A stretch of DNA of 64,000 nt. Origin: a virus. Positions 19,316 through 63,348 of this stretch are shown here, in pieces (within the stretch, counting starts at the first letter, position 1; each line of letters begins with the position of its first letter). The stretch spans positions 1 to 64,000 of the IMG/VR virus record IMGVR_UViG_3300029911_000001; one strand, given 5' to 3'. The translations under genes and the position numbers were made by a program. The notes below the pieces were generated by a model that ran no database searches, was not told the DNA's origin, and worked only from the letters and a program-made list of their open reading frames with translations.

Positions 19316-20749
19316 CTAATTAATATTCAGTGAGAAGCGTTTCTTCCCGCTATCCCAAATACGATACCATCCCTTGGCTTCCGCTTCGGATTTCTCATCC
19401 ATGCCTGCCTTGACCCTTAGAGCGTACTTGCTTTTACGAACTGAACCGTTGGTGTACGAGTAATCCGGCTTTAACTCCTCTTCGAATGTGAACCCCAGCT
19501 TTCCATAGAGCCCACCCGTGTGAAACCGATTATCACTAAAGGTGACCATTCGCTTGAATCCCATAGAGCGTAGCTCAGGAAGAGCTAGATGAAGAGCCTT
19601 TTCATGAGGATTCCATGCTTTATATTCATGATTCCAACTAGCCCGATGCCACAGGATGACACCCTCTTCACGTTTCATAAAAACCCATACACCCACAAGT
19701 TGGGTACCATGGTGGGCAGTCACCGTCAGGCCACCGGATGCGGCTCCGAGGTAATGGTACGCATCTAGAAAGGTTCGAGCTTCAAATGGAGTTTCATGAT
19801 GGATAGCAAAAACCGGCTTGATGCGCTTCCCACTCCGGGGTTGAATCATCGAACGTACGAGTGCCTTAACTACATCAGGTTTCTCATTCCACTCATCCTG
19901 ATAAATCTGGAGAAGGCGGGTTGCGCCCTGTTGTAACCACTGAAACTTATCGGCGTCTTTAGACCCTTGAAGGTATCTCTCCGAGTGCCATATCAGTCCA
20001 TGGTACTCAATAGCTAACGAGGCCGAAGGAACGTAGATATCCACTGTATGTCGTCTGGAAAACTGGGGAACCAAAGAGGACAAAGGGACTTCCATCTCTA
20101 CCGGAACGTGGTATTCGTTACGAATGAAATCGGCAATATGGGTGGCTGGAGAGTTCGCCATCATACCCATTCGGTGACATCCACAGGACTTAATCAGTCC
20201 TTGTACGAGGGAGTCGCCGTAAACCACTGACGTGTTCCCGCAATCACAAGTCACATTCCACTGGTACTTCCCCCCCTGACCCACTCCATGTACAGTCGTT
20301 GTCGTAAGAGCGCCGAACCGCTGCCCTTCTATGTCCTTGAAGTTAGCGAGTGTGGCTTGTTCTCTCATGTAACAACCACATGAAGACGTGTGTCCACTAT
20401 TCAAGTGAGCAGTGGATACCAGTGCCATGCCCCCACATTCACAAGAGCACTGCCAGAATGACTGACCGTTATACGACCCCTCGTTACGTTGGTGGTCTAA
20501 TGTTATAACTAGAAGCCGTCCGAATTTCCTGCCCACCATACTGGGGATACGATTCTGGCGACTCTCTTTTACCAGACAACCACATGACTTGGATAACCCT
20601 CGCAGCACAGAAGCCCACGATATTTCTTTTGTTCCACCGCAGGAGCACACGAACCGATACTTCGTATGAGACACCCTAAGATTAAGAGGTAGGTTCTCCT
20701 GCTGAGGGTCAAGACGAAGTCGGTTCCACTGCATACCCAGCATATCCAT
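19316..20749 (-). CDS. Hef-like homing endonuclease (Vsr/EDxHD-type)
   Basis: About 477 residues from the ATG at 20749; a TTG at 20761 in the same frame is an alternative. The N-terminal half has at least three CxCG...SCGC zinc repeats (CSCGGTKEIS, CSCECGG, CDCGNTSVV with SCGC). A nuclease core follows with IEYHGLIWHSE, a conserved Lys stretch and LLQIYQDEW, the layout of Vsr-like phage homing enzymes. The C-terminal GNAT-like part contains FLDAYHYLGAASGG and LVGVWVFMKR. It sits between the capsid terminator and the gap, so it is an insertion downstream of the capsid gene. Confidence 0.8.
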   Translation of the reverse strand: MDMLGMQWNRLRLDPQQENLPLNLRVSHTKYRFVCSCGGTKEISWASVLRGLSKSCGCLVKESRQNRIPSMVGRKFGRLLVITLDHQRNEGSYNGQSFWQCSCECGGMALVSTAHLNSGHTSSCGCYMREQATLANFKDIEGQRFGALTTTTVHGVGQGGKYQWNVTCDCGNTSVVYGDSLVQGLIKSCGCHRMGMMANSPATHIADFIRNEYHVPVEMEVPLSSLVPQFSRRHTVDIYVPSASLAIEYHGLIWHSERYLQGSKDADKFQWLQQGATRLLQIYQDEWNEKPDVVKALVRSMIQPRSGKRIKPVFAIHHETPFEARTFLDAYHYLGAASGGLTVTAHHGTQLVGVWVFMKREEGVILWHRASWNHEYKAWNPHEKALHLALPELRSMGFKRMVTFSDNRFHTGGLYGKLGFTFEEELKPDYSYTNGSVRKSKYALRVKAGMDEKSEAEAKGWYRIWDSGKKRFSLNIN

Positions 20750-20767
20750 ACTAATACCCAAAAAGCG

Positions 20768-20817: not shown

Positions 20818-21774
20818 TTAGTTCTCGCCTACGTTCGGGGAAGCGAAGCGACCACTTACAGTCAGACGCTGTACGCCGGACGGGTTGAAGACCAAGAAGC
20901 CGAGGTTCTCGAAGATGGAGAAACCAATCTGGCGGAGGTCAGGACGGTCTGCACTCATGACGGTTAGCGGGATACGCTCTGGGATGACACCGAGGAACTC
21001 AGCGTCGGCCAGAATGTACACGCAGCCATAACCAACCTTACGGGACTGGAGCAGAGTTGCGCCCCACAGGTAACCCATAACACCGGTCTTCAAGAGCTTG
21101 CGCTGTGTCTCACGGTCGATGTTCTGCTGTGTCCACTTGAGCAAGTCAGTGTAGTCGCGGGGGTTGAAGAAGCAGAAAGCCACCGAGAGGTCGTGACGCT
21201 GAACCTGACCGAAACCATCAGCCATGCTGTTGATGTCGATAGGAGCCGAAATCGCGATGTCCACGTTGTACACGGGGTCGGTCTGCGCCTTGCCTGCTGC
21301 GGCAGTTGCAACCGCGTCAAACAGGGTGAAAACGTAGCCGTCTTCTGCTGCACCGACTTCAGCCTTCGCCAAGTTAAGCGAATGGGCCACGAGGTCGAAG
21401 CGGCGTTCCTTAATCTGGGTGATAGGAATCATCGGGTTGGATACGATTTCGAACGTCGGAACCGTAACACGCTTCGGCTTTGTCACGCGAACGATGTCAC
21501 CACCTTCTTCACCGACGACGAAGGCTTCCACGAAGCTACCACCGGGGGCCGAGCCCACAGTCATAGCAGCAGTGTCAAATTCCTTATCGTAGATGGGCAG
21601 AGCACCATCGGGCAAAGTCTCAACCATCAGCGCCTTACGGGCGATGGACATATAGTCACGACGACGACGAAGTGACGGGCCAAGCGAGGCAGCAAGCTTC
21701 TGACGACCACCGGCAGTCTTAAGCAACTGTCCGAGCATCGCGGTCTGCTGCTGTGTGCGAGAAAGATTAGCCAT
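20818..21774 (-). CDS. Major capsid protein (HK97-fold type)
   Basis: 318 residues. A basic N-terminal arm (LGPSLRRRRDYMSIARKAL) is followed by an E-loop-like stretch (APGGSFVEAFVVGEEGGDIV) and the P- and A-domain pattern KPKRVTVPTFEIVSNPMIPI ... MADGFGQVQRHDL ... FFNPRDYTDLLKW ... LLKTGVMGYLWGATLLQS ... VYILADAEFLGVIPERI. This is the familiar order of HK97-like phage capsid proteins. It is followed by a strong terminator and preceded by the decoration gene, the usual head-gene arrangement. Pieces around residues 184-210 and 228-240 recur in the Tat-signal proteins at 60198-61359. Confidence 0.85.
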   Translation of the reverse strand: MANLSRTQQQTAMLGQLLKTAGGRQKLAASLGPSLRRRRDYMSIARKALMVETLPDGALPIYDKEFDTAAMTVGSAPGGSFVEAFVVGEEGGDIVRVTKPKRVTVPTFEIVSNPMIPITQIKERRFDLVAHSLNLAKAEVGAAEDGYVFTLFDAVATAAAGKAQTDPVYNVDIAISAPIDINSMADGFGQVQRHDLSVAFCFFNPRDYTDLLKWTQQNIDRETQRKLLKTGVMGYLWGATLLQSRKVGYGCVYILADAEFLGVIPERIPLTVMSADRPDLRQIGFSIFENLGFLVFNPSGVQRLTVSGRFASPNVGEN

Positions 21775-59992: not shown

Positions 59993-60220
59993 TCAGCACA
60001 TATCCCATGCACGGATTTCGGAGTGTTCGAAGTCTACATCGGCGAGGTTCTCTTCGCCTACCATCTCAGCCGCGAACGCACGGTAAGTCTCTTCCGTGGA
60101 GTCGGAGGGGTGGTGGAACTCGAACTGGAACTTACGAGGGTCTCCGTCTTCGGTCTCGACACGATGGCCGCAGCAACCGGAGTCGCAACCGTAGTAGCTA
60201 TGTAGGATTAGAAGTTTCAT
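59993..60220 (-). CDS. Small hypothetical protein
   Basis: 75 residues starting MKLLILHSYYGCDSGCCGHR. The Cys/His cluster is followed by a beta-rich stretch (KFQFEFHHPSDSTEE) and an acidic end (AEMVGEENLADVDF). It overlaps the end of the Tat-signal protein gene by 23 bases and appears to be the last member of that cassette. Function unknown. Confidence 0.6.
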   Translation of the reverse strand: MKLLILHSYYGCDSGCCGHRVETEDGDPRKFQFEFHHPSDSTEETYRAFAAEMVGEENLADVDFEHSEIRAWDMC

Positions 60221-60515
60221 TCTGTAACCTCACTAATTCTGCGTACCCCGCAGGGTTCCACTCTTTATACACCCGAGGGTTGACGAACATGAACGTAGGT
60301 GCAAGGTCATACCGTTGGACTTCTGCGAAGGCGTCAGCCATACCCTCAAGGGTAATTGCACCCGGAGTGGGCTGGGGGGTTGGTACGTTCCACAAATACC
60401 CCATCACGCCACGCTGCTTCAGCAACTCAAGGTCAACAGGAACAGGTGCTGGCGTCGGGAGTACCGCCGCGACCGCTACTGCAACCATGGTGCCTAAAAA
60501 GTTTCTACGGTTCAA
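60198..60515 (-). CDS. Tat-signal protein resembling capsid protein pieces (short form)
   Basis: 105 residues from a TTG at 60515 that overlaps the preceding TGA, with GGAG upstream. It begins MNRRNFLGTMVAVAVAAVLP, a twin-arginine signal. After it, LLKQRGVMGYLW (31-42) matches LLKTGVMGYLW of the capsid protein at 20818. GMADAFAEVQRYDLAPTF plus MFVNPRVYKEW (58-86) matches capsid residues 183-210 (SMADGFGQVQRHDLSVAF, FFNPRDYTDLLKW). The two blocks are in reversed order compared with the capsid. Probably exported by Tat. A similar protein lies two genes upstream. Confidence 0.75.
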   Translation of the reverse strand: MNRRNFLGTMVAVAVAAVLPTPAPVPVDLELLKQRGVMGYLWNVPTPQPTPGAITLEGMADAFAEVQRYDLAPTFMFVNPRVYKEWNPAGYAELVRLQNETSNPT

Positions 60516-60751
60516 TCTCCTGCCTCCATGAAGTGCGTGATGGGACCATACTTCGGCTGGGCTGCAATCTTCCAGCAGTTTATGATTCGGAATGCTCGAC
60601 CTGTGCCGGTGAGAATACGACCAGTCTGAGTCTTCACTGCGAAGAAGCGTTCCTTCGATTCATCGGTGGGGGCTCCGGGAGTCCATGCCTCTGGAGGCAG
60701 GGTACCGGCCCAGTCACCAATCGCTTGCAGATGTTTTTCTTTTTCTCTCAT
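60512..60751 (-). CDS. Small hypothetical protein in the Tat cassette
   Basis: 79 residues from the ATG at 60751, which overlaps the stop of the larger Tat protein (ATGA). It reads MREKEKHLQAIGDWAGTLPP and has a beta-rich end (VKTQTGRILTGTGRAFRIIN). A longer frame to 60802 exists but lies inside the upstream gene. It is translationally coupled on both sides to Tat-signal genes, so probably part of the same function; it has no export signal itself. Confidence 0.6.
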   Translation of the reverse strand: MREKEKHLQAIGDWAGTLPPEAWTPGAPTDESKERFFAVKTQTGRILTGTGRAFRIINCWKIAAQPKYGPITHFMEAGD

Positions 60752-61359
60752 GCGAAGAACTGCTCCCCAACTTTCTCGTTCACGAACAGCACGACGTTCC
60801 AATCAGTGGGCTTGCGAGTATAGGTCGCAGTGTGATGGAAGAACCCCTTAGTAGAAAGCTCAACCCAGTCCACAGGTGCGGACGCCCTGTAACTCTTCGG
60901 CCTGTCTCCGACGTACCGGCGTTCGGTACGAACACGAATCTCATCCATGGGGAGGTCGAGGTCACCCACCACGATGGCTCCCCACATGTACCCCATGACC
61001 GGGCGACCCTCGGTGTAGTGATAACTCGCACAGACCATATCGCCGGGACTACCGTTGAAGTGACGACCCTTACTCCATGACTTCTTAGCCCCTCTGCTGT
61101 ATCGAGACTCCCCCATAAAATCCTCCCAACCAATGGTGTCTTCAAGCCAGAGAAGATTGTCGGGGTTGATGTAAAGAACCTCCGCCCGATCCCCATGAGC
61201 TTCCATCTTGTCGAAGGCGTCCTTGATACTTTCAGGAGATAGCCCCGGCGTCAGCTTGATAGGCTGGGGTGTGGGAACGTACTTCGCCAACGCTGTGAGC
61301 GGAGAGACGAGGGCGAGAGCCACCGATGTTTGGAGAAAATTTCGACGCGATACTAACAT
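60748..61359 (-). CDS. Tat-signal protein resembling capsid protein pieces (long form)
   Basis: 203 residues. LVSRRNFLQTSVALALVSPL is a near-perfect Tat signal (S-R-R-x-F-L-x), with likely cleavage after TALA. SIKDAFDKMEAHGDRAEVLY plus INPDNLLWLED (44-74) parallels the capsid stretch 183-210. GRPVMGYMWGAIVVGDLDLP (118-137) parallels capsid LLKTGVMGYLWGATLL, in the same order as in the capsid. The segment VPTPQP before the first block is shared with the short form, so the two are paralogues. The C-terminal 60 residues are unrecognised. First gene of a four-gene coupled cassette. Confidence 0.75.
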   Translation of the reverse strand: MLVSRRNFLQTSVALALVSPLTALAKYVPTPQPIKLTPGLSPESIKDAFDKMEAHGDRAEVLYINPDNLLWLEDTIGWEDFMGESRYSRGAKKSWSKGRHFNGSPGDMVCASYHYTEGRPVMGYMWGAIVVGDLDLPMDEIRVRTERRYVGDRPKSYRASAPVDWVELSTKGFFHHTATYTRKPTDWNVVLFVNEKVGEQFFA

Positions 61360-61568: not shown

Positions 61569-61578
61569 TCACGAAAGA

Positions 61579-61658
61579 GCTACGAGAGGGATTCGAACCC
61601 CCGGTGTTTGTATGCCGCATTACAAGTGCGGTGCATTCGACCACTCAGCCATCGTAGC
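61579..61658 (-). tRNA. tRNA-Thr (anticodon TGT)
   Basis: Acceptor GCTACGA/TCGTAGC, D-arm TGGCTGAGTGGTCGAATGCA, anticodon stem CCGCA/TGCGG with loop CTTGTAA, T-arm GGGGGTTCGAATCCCTC. The variable region is long (CATACAAACACC), as in type II tRNAs. No encoded CCA. Confidence 0.8.
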
Positions 61659-62748: not shown

Positions 62749-63348
62749 TCACTCCCAGTACAGCCTATAGTTCGTTCCGTATACTTCGTTCAACTTCTTG
62801 AAGAAGGCATCGGTCTTTATCTTGACCATGAAATCGTCACCCTTGGCGACGACGCCTTCCCACACTGGATACTTTCCGCTGCGGACATCATCAACGAACT
62901 GCTTGTTGAGGTTGCCCTCGTAAACCACTTCAGCCGCGTATGGCAGGTCTCCGTACTGCTTGAGAAACTGCCGGGGCGACATCATCCCCTTCTTGAACAG
63001 GTACACATCGAACAAGCGAAGCTGCTTAGGCTCCCCCGGCGTATGCACACCCGCGAAACTTGAGTCCCCGAAGAACTCTGTGAAGACCGTGGTCCTCTGG
63101 CAGTTCCGGTCGTAGTCCTTCACCCGGCGAGTCAACTCATCTGCCATGGTATCCATGAAGACCGGAATCGCTTCACCGAAGACCGGGTTGCTCTTGTCGA
63201 ACAACTCATGTCGGGTACCAAACTTGAACCAACCCTTCTTGGGGTTCCACTCCCAACGAAGGTTCGAGCCATCGTACTTGTAGAAAGCGATGCACTGCTT
63301 ACCTAGAGGGGCTTTGGAACTTCCTTCGATACTTGGGTACTGCTCCAT
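62749..63348 (-). CDS. RNA ligase-like nucleotidyltransferase
   Basis: 199 residues. Motif I is KYDGSN (residues 24-29, adenylated Lys). Others: FGTRHELFD, a motif IIIa-like region (TVFTEFFGDSSFAG, RLFDVYLFKKG), motif IV WEGVVAKGDD and motif V MVKIKTDAF. This is the core of the Rnl2/DRB0094-type RNA ligases. It would seal RNA ends with ATP. Near phage tRNAs and a P-loop kinase it may repair tRNAs cut by host nucleases. No large C-terminal domain, so a short form. Confidence 0.8.
   Translation of the reverse strand: MEQYPSIEGSSKAPLGKQCIAFYKYDGSNLRWEWNPKKGWFKFGTRHELFDKSNPVFGEAIPVFMDTMADELTRRVKDYDRNCQRTTVFTEFFGDSSFAGVHTPGEPKQLRLFDVYLFKKGMMSPRQFLKQYGDLPYAAEVVYEGNLNKQFVDDVRSGKYPVWEGVVAKGDDFMVKIKTDAFFKKLNEVYGTNYRLYWE

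Follow-up and report, generated by a model that had tools for sequence, protein, structure and literature searches.

Phage proteins carrying capsid-derived sequence behind predicted twin-arginine signals

Introduction

Capsid proteins are regarded as structural parts of the virion that remain cytoplasmic until lysis. Why, then, would a phage place pieces of its own major capsid protein (MCP) behind twin-arginine (Tat) export signals? This question is raised by a stretch of 64,000 nucleotides, referred to here as the window, that forms part of a virus record of 231,108 bp (G000). The initial annotation of the window described a coupled cassette of four genes, two of which encode proteins with a Tat signal followed by capsid-like stretches. 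Here, we ask whether the likeness to capsid is real, whether such proteins recur in other phages, and how they might act.

Results

A coupled four-gene cassette in a tRNA array

The cassette (59993-61359) consists of four genes on the minus strand, located in an array of tRNA genes (Table 1). All four are linked through overlapping start and stop codons, so the coupling first proposed holds: the stop codon of P0002 (60750-60748) and the ATG at 60751 of the 79-aa open reading frame (ORF) overlap, as do the TGA of that ORF and the TTG at 60515 of P0001; P0001 in turn overlaps the ATG at 60220 of the 75-aa ORF. Codon bias favors the annotated frame in each of the four genes. Family database searches returned no match for the 75-aa ORF or for a longer, 96-aa frame of the 79-aa ORF. 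The cassette is not an assembly artefact, since it recurs in two further metagenomes, whose contigs are the same over 7.4-8.5 kb apart from a single mismatch each. Also within the tRNA array, at 62749-63348, is a gene for a nucleotidyltransferase-type protein (RNA or DNA ligase-like, with a KYDGSN motif). A tRNA with a CTA anticodon, possibly an amber suppressor, and a predicted tmRNA are found just right of the window (L009:3323-3396 and L009:7374-7774) and in L333 of phage G009.

Table 1. Cassette genes and associated features in the window.
Feature	Position	Strand	Remarks
P0002, long Tat protein, 203 aa	60748..61359	-	Tat signal SRRNFLQ..LTALA followed by K, then A-domain-like blocks in MCP order
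ORF, 79 aa	60512..60751	-	no assigned function; start overlaps P0002 stop, stop overlaps P0001 start
P0001, short Tat protein, 105 aa	60198..60515	-	TTG start; Tat signal NRRNFLG, then permuted MCP blocks
ORF, 75 aa	59993..60220	-	no assigned function; overlaps P0001 end
HK97-fold MCP	20818..21774	-	source of shared sequence; A-domain stretch ~residues 176-260
tRNA-Thr (TGT)	61577..61658	-	closest tRNA of the array holding the cassette; 218 bp upstream of P0002

The MCP of this virus belongs to the HK97-fold capsid proteins, with matches to phrog_2522 (E=3e-42) and NF042927 (E=7e-36). Its identity is 72% with the MCP of jumbo phage Tunturi_5, a phage of the acidobacterium Tunturiibacter psychrotolerans, and 35% with the MCP of Bacillus phage G, for which a structure is available (6wkk). 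Directly downstream of the MCP gene, at 19316-20761, lies a gene for a 481-aa, apparently homing-endonuclease-type protein with zinc-binding repeats.

Twin-arginine signals of the window proteins

P0002 begins with MLVSRRNFLQTSVALALVSPLTALA followed by K, and P0001 with (M)NRRNFLGTMVAVAVAAVL; that is, each has a Tat motif near the N terminus and then a hydrophobic stretch. The strength of these signals was assessed with an HMM (TIGR01409) and by eye rather than with a dedicated predictor. P0001 scored 18.2 bits, over the cut-off of 16.7, and P0002 scored 12.7 bits, under the cut-off although the motif is present. The twin-arginine signals reported for both proteins were therefore recovered in both, with P0001 above the model threshold. 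The same cut-off was exceeded by P0004, a further protein of this virus described below, and the Tat signals of P0002 and P0005, the latter from another phage, have an AxA-like site. No TatC was found in the eight phages examined, and export would therefore go through the host Tat system; from their sequences, the Tat members are probably exported in this manner.

Capsid homology of P0001 and P0002

The capsid-like content of both window proteins is limited to A-domain blocks; neither has the full succession of N-arm, E-loop, P-domain and A-domain that makes up an MCP. In P0002 the blocks ESIKDAFDKMEAHGDRAEVLYINPD and RPVMGYMWGAIVV occur as they do in the MCP, while in P0001 LLKQRGVMGYLW comes first and GMADAFAEVQRYDLAPTFMFVNPRVY second, an order permuted relative to the MCP, which agrees with the reversal noted at the outset for the short protein. 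By BLASTP, P0001 matches the MCP with E=4e-10 over MADAFAEVQRYDL...NPR and with E=0.002 over the permuted LLK-GVMGYLW; in a search of every ORF with an MCP HMM it was found with E=4e-8. P0002 is weaker by itself, with a BLASTP match to VMGYMWGA only (E=0.006) and E=0.014 with the MCP HMM. The two proteins are mutually related (pairwise E=1e-7), and an hhalign comparison of P0002 and its paralogue P0004 with the MCP gave 96.5% probability and E=8.5e-10. With a profile built from four of the Tat proteins, the alignment to the MCP reached 97.7% probability.

Could these matches reflect chance, that is, short blocks with no relation to the capsid protein? Each block is indeed short, and P0002 on its own is a weak match. 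Several controls nevertheless lead us to reject this explanation, which we consider very improbable. The MCP HMM was built from 55 distinct MCPs, with the Tat proteins excluded, and was used to search open frames of at least 40 aa in G000 and in a second phage, G014. Every non-MCP ORF found at E<=0.014 was a Tat ORF, and the next match had E=0.17; the best score in a reversed-ORF control was E=1.6. When sequences were shuffled, none of 3000 shuffles reached the real score for seven of eight proteins, P0001 and P0002 among them, and two of 3000 did so for P0008. The profile comparison points the same way, and A4, a search profile of four Tat proteins, hits a capsid protein in all but one of 43 records (see below). 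The capsid-like stretches described in the two proteins are thus upheld by BLASTP, the MCP HMM, shuffles and hhalign alike, and alignment by profile HMM, which the initial annotation had proposed as a check, gave scores better than the shuffled and reversed controls.

Further members in this virus and in other phages

A search of the whole record with P0001 revealed P0004, a third Tat protein, outside the window (65742-66380 of G000). Its capsid-like part follows MCP residues 181-257 in unchanged order, with 25% identity over 85 aa (E=9e-6). P0007 (85 aa, 146922-147179 of G000), one of the Tat ORFs recovered with the MCP HMM, reads MKFTRRQFFAGLPVF... and then PKRVMVPTFEIVSCPTILLKEIKERRF, corresponding to MCP residues ~100-128. 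A family with no assigned function, phrog_17546 (85 aa), weakly matches P0004 (E=0.026); it was found solely in G000 and in a contig nearly identical to it. In a loose scan for Tat motifs, about 40 chance or antisense ORFs were dropped by eye, either because the RR was far from a plausible start or because the frame was antisense. The convincing Tat-signal ORFs of G000, also inspected by eye, all carry MCP sequence (four of four). Among convincing Tat ORFs, the clear exception to this pattern is gp162 of Tunturi_5 (L303:17114-17689), a Tat-signal protein with no detectable MCP piece.

The initial annotation had suggested searching phage genomes for the same fusion of signal and capsid sequence, and such a search yielded additional cases. 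Against 20 related records, a profile of three Tat proteins matched the MCP A-domain in every record, and P0005 was the single additional ORF hit. This protein, encoded in G014 (237 kb), has a Tat signal and a complete A-domain-like region, with 31% identity to MCP over 80 aa (E=1e-10); the whole A-domain-like region is likewise retained in P0004. Against 43 further records, A4 matched a capsid protein in 42, including phage G and LR745208, and in the remaining one, G022, an identical copy of P0005. G014 carries two more Tat members: P0009, which starts with A-domain-like sequence and continues with the N-arm region, in an order altered relative to the MCP, and P0008, with a weak C-terminal MCP piece. 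In Tunturi_5, gp172 (P0006; XOB77615.1, annotated as hypothetical) combines a Tat signal with MCP 273-302 and MCP 100-128, swapped (E=3e-13), and aligns with P0007 at 36.7% over 90 aa, the Tat signal included. Lastly, P0010, from G011 (456 kb), is a second MCP with a Tat signal. It starts with MQRRNFLRGLLLAPLAGLFPTFTWAEVW from a TTG codon with AGGAGG upstream, and is 43% identical to MCP over 322 aa, i.e., nearly full length, with part of the E-loop absent; it scores under the NF042927 cut-off (47 versus 80 bits). The ordinary MCP of G011 is at 430631. The Tat signals are intact in all members. Taken together, these proteins very probably form a capsid-derived family with Tat signals, whose members draw on different regions of the MCP.

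Among the larger related genomes that were examined, Tat members were found in only 4. Scans of viral contigs with P0001, P0002, P0004, P0005 and P0010 returned identical copies only, no bacterial homologues appeared in the genome contigs scanned with a Tat-MCP/MCP alignment, and tblastn of phage records returned nothing with P0002 and, with P0001, no match other than the Tunturi_5 MCP. Genomes were covered completely for G000, G014, G022, G015 and G004, nearly so for Tunturi_5, G005 and G009, and to ~83% for G011. Because most relatives are metagenome contigs of uncertain completeness, the absence of members is weak evidence.

MCP pieces also occur in proteins without a Tat signal. Orthologous genes in G009 (L333:9482-10198) and G011 (L370:10979-11512) carry an A-domain piece (MCP HMM E=1e-10 and 2e-11, respectively) and are 36% identical over 188 aa. 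A 106-aa cysteine-rich protein (L369:2791-3111) ends in PTFEIASMPMISKSEIINRRFE, a piece corresponding to MCP 101-127 (E=0.0005), and G004 has a C-terminal MCP piece (E=0.017). A 98-aa protein of G023 (L251:2868-3164) shows weak likeness to P0004 (E=0.003) and to the MCP A-domain (E=0.37). Small proteins with, or resembling, the MCP N-arm are encoded in G005 (L300:4377-4868) and G011 (L370:10479-10751 and L371:2891-3187). The Tat signal is therefore not obligatory. As to location, the A-domain-piece gene of G009 directly follows tRNA genes, and one of the N-arm-type genes sits just upstream of that for P0010.

Retained regions and folding

The initial annotation envisaged exported, folded capsid fragments. 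Folding as capsid domains is unsupported, in that some members have only 57-69 aa after the signal, with an MCP piece of ~30 aa, and the two AlphaFold models run are of very low confidence (mean pLDDT 39). The MCP regions retained also differ among members (N-arm, 100-128, A-domain, C-terminus), and the block order is permuted in P0001, P0009 and gp172. Given that the pieces come from different positions, are permuted, and in many cases lack the length for independent folding, sequence recognition would seem to count for more than the capsid fold.

Specificity, location and ancestry

Among 69 protein families common to at least four of eight phages, a clear excess of scattered pieces in unrelated ORFs was seen for the MCP alone; a general shedding of gene pieces is rejected on this basis. 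The long 'fragment' lists of other families consist mostly of endonuclease paralogues, antisense shadow frames and cuts at stretch borders. For eight of the nine Tat members, the distance to a tRNA gene is at most 2.3 kb, the exception being gp172 of Tunturi_5; such distances span 1.6-13.5% of each genome. Thus, the family is encoded mostly beside tRNA genes, in giant (jumbo) soil phages related to an Acidobacteriota phage. An HNH-endonuclease family near the loci in G000, G014, G011 and G009 suggests a shared ancestral locus.

In closeness to the fragments, the MCP of the same phage ranks from 1 to 45 of 56; that is, the own MCP is not consistently the nearest. The fragments are therefore not fresh copies, and neither recent copying nor concerted evolution from the own MCP is supported. 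Judging from sequence, P0010 plausibly represents the ancestral architecture of the family. The idea of a domesticated capsid protein, one of those offered initially, is supported in terms of origin by the capsid-derived sequence in a recurring Tat family that includes a nearly full-length Tat-MCP.

Discussion

Phage capsid protein, or pieces of it, behind Tat signals is a recurring architecture without described counterpart in the open-access literature; our search of that literature found no such system, as the initial annotation had held. The Tat members share sequence with HK97-fold MCPs of the phage G / Tunturi_5 type (phrog_2522, NF042927, 6wkk) in the A-domain, residues 100-128, the N-arm and the C-terminal region, and differ from them in the Tat signal in front, the partial or permuted content, the separate gene and, mostly, the position beside tRNA genes. 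With Tat substrates (TIGR01409 / PF10518) they have in common the RRxFL motif near the N terminus, an uncharged h-region and, in some members, an AxA-like site; their cargo, however, is capsid-derived and not a cofactor enzyme, and export here is predicted. MCP paralogues such as T4 gp24 show that a phage can possess a further gene derived from its MCP, comparable to P0010, but gp24 occupies the vertices of the virion and has no export signal, whereas the window proteins are fragments with Tat signals. Encapsulins likewise put an HK97-type fold to a new use, as whole shell proteins without Tat signals; the window proteins and their relatives matched no encapsulin family in Pfam or NCBIfam.

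What might these proteins do? The mechanism that we place first, tentatively and by analogy, is that of a recognition decoy or sponge for a capsid-recognizing factor. In the most likely history of the family, a duplicated MCP gained a Tat signal, and this Tat-MCP, of the kind seen in P0010, was then duplicated, pruned and shuffled, leaving each gene with one or two MCP stretches behind its own Tat signal. The capsid-derived pieces would mimic capsid segments and thereby bind such a factor, either a capsid-sensing defense protein or the capsid partner of a competing element, and the bound factor would be held at, or carried across, the inner membrane via Tat. Because short stretches with no foldable domain are kept, the proteins may act by being recognized; the retention of the Tat signal across the diverged members gp172 and P0007 also counts in favor of the proposal. 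Capsid proteins or peptides are known to trigger CapRel-SJ46 and Lit, the latter being activated by the Gol peptide of the T4 MCP (PMC9712102). In those systems a cellular host sensor recognizes the MCP or a short peptide thereof, whereas the Tat members are phage proteins, likened to them by analogy. Known capsid sensors act in the cytoplasm, which a decoy would leave on export; the proposal therefore needs either membrane retention or 'hitchhiker' export, the transport through Tat of partners attached to a subunit that bears the signal (PMC4273604). Against a decoy, a capsid peptide could activate a sensor instead of blunting it; moreover, the Tat signal is not obligatory and Tat members were found in only those 4 genomes. 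The entire chain, from a Tat-MCP family through host Tat export to a decoy or sponge at the membrane, is thus rather doubtful. It is unlikely, in its full form, that we are dealing with an undescribed class of phage proteins in which Tat signals are joined to capsid protein, nearly whole or as shuffled pieces, and in which the host Tat system thereby moves the pieces, together with a bound capsid-recognizing factor, to or across the inner membrane.

Three other explanations, each improbable if taken singly, are not separated by the data. The fragments might interfere with or regulate capsid assembly by binding MCP subunits or assembly intermediates, with the Tat-like segment targeting the inner membrane, and so localize assembly or poison the capsids of co-infecting phages; Gag-derived restriction factors, which poison the capsids of infecting viruses in animals, are a model for such an effect. 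The regions that supply the pieces form inter-subunit contacts in HK97-type shells, and P0010, nearly full length and short of a portion of the E-loop, could act as a defective subunit. A cleavable Tat signal, however, would take the fragment away from capsid assembly in the cytoplasm, and the fragments do not track the MCP of their own phage. There is a similarly small chance that a capsid-derived domain has assumed a periplasmic role apart from capsid recognition, for example in superinfection exclusion or envelope modification. The AxA-like site in the signals of P0002 and P0005, and the whole A-domain-like region kept in P0004 and P0005, would fit such a role, but the ~30 aa of MCP sequence in P0006 and P0007 cannot hold the fold, and family database searches found neither a catalytic motif nor a known domain. 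Nor do we think it likely that the short ORFs are functionless leftovers of a Tat-MCP duplicate that decayed in a recombination-prone tRNA array. The permuted and partial pieces, the patchy distribution, the tRNA-array setting and the nearby HNH endonucleases are what such decay might produce; against it stand the frame-specific coding bias, the start-stop coupling, the intact Tat signals in every member, and the fact that signal and piece can be aligned between two diverged phages (P0006/P0007).

A recurring family that joins capsid sequence to an export signal implies that this sequence has a second role, either at the inner membrane or beyond it. Should the proteins prove to be decoys, they would direct attention to factors in Acidobacteriota that sense capsids, and to the stretches that these read, namely the N-arm, residues 100-128 and the A-domain. 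As gp172 occurs in a cultured pair, Tunturi_5 and Tunturiibacter psychrotolerans, the question is directly testable. In the same phage, gp90 (L302:18759-19988, XOB77533.1) is annotated as 'major head protein' and reads as an AAA ATPase (GPPGTGKST, VFEDID), an apparent misannotation.
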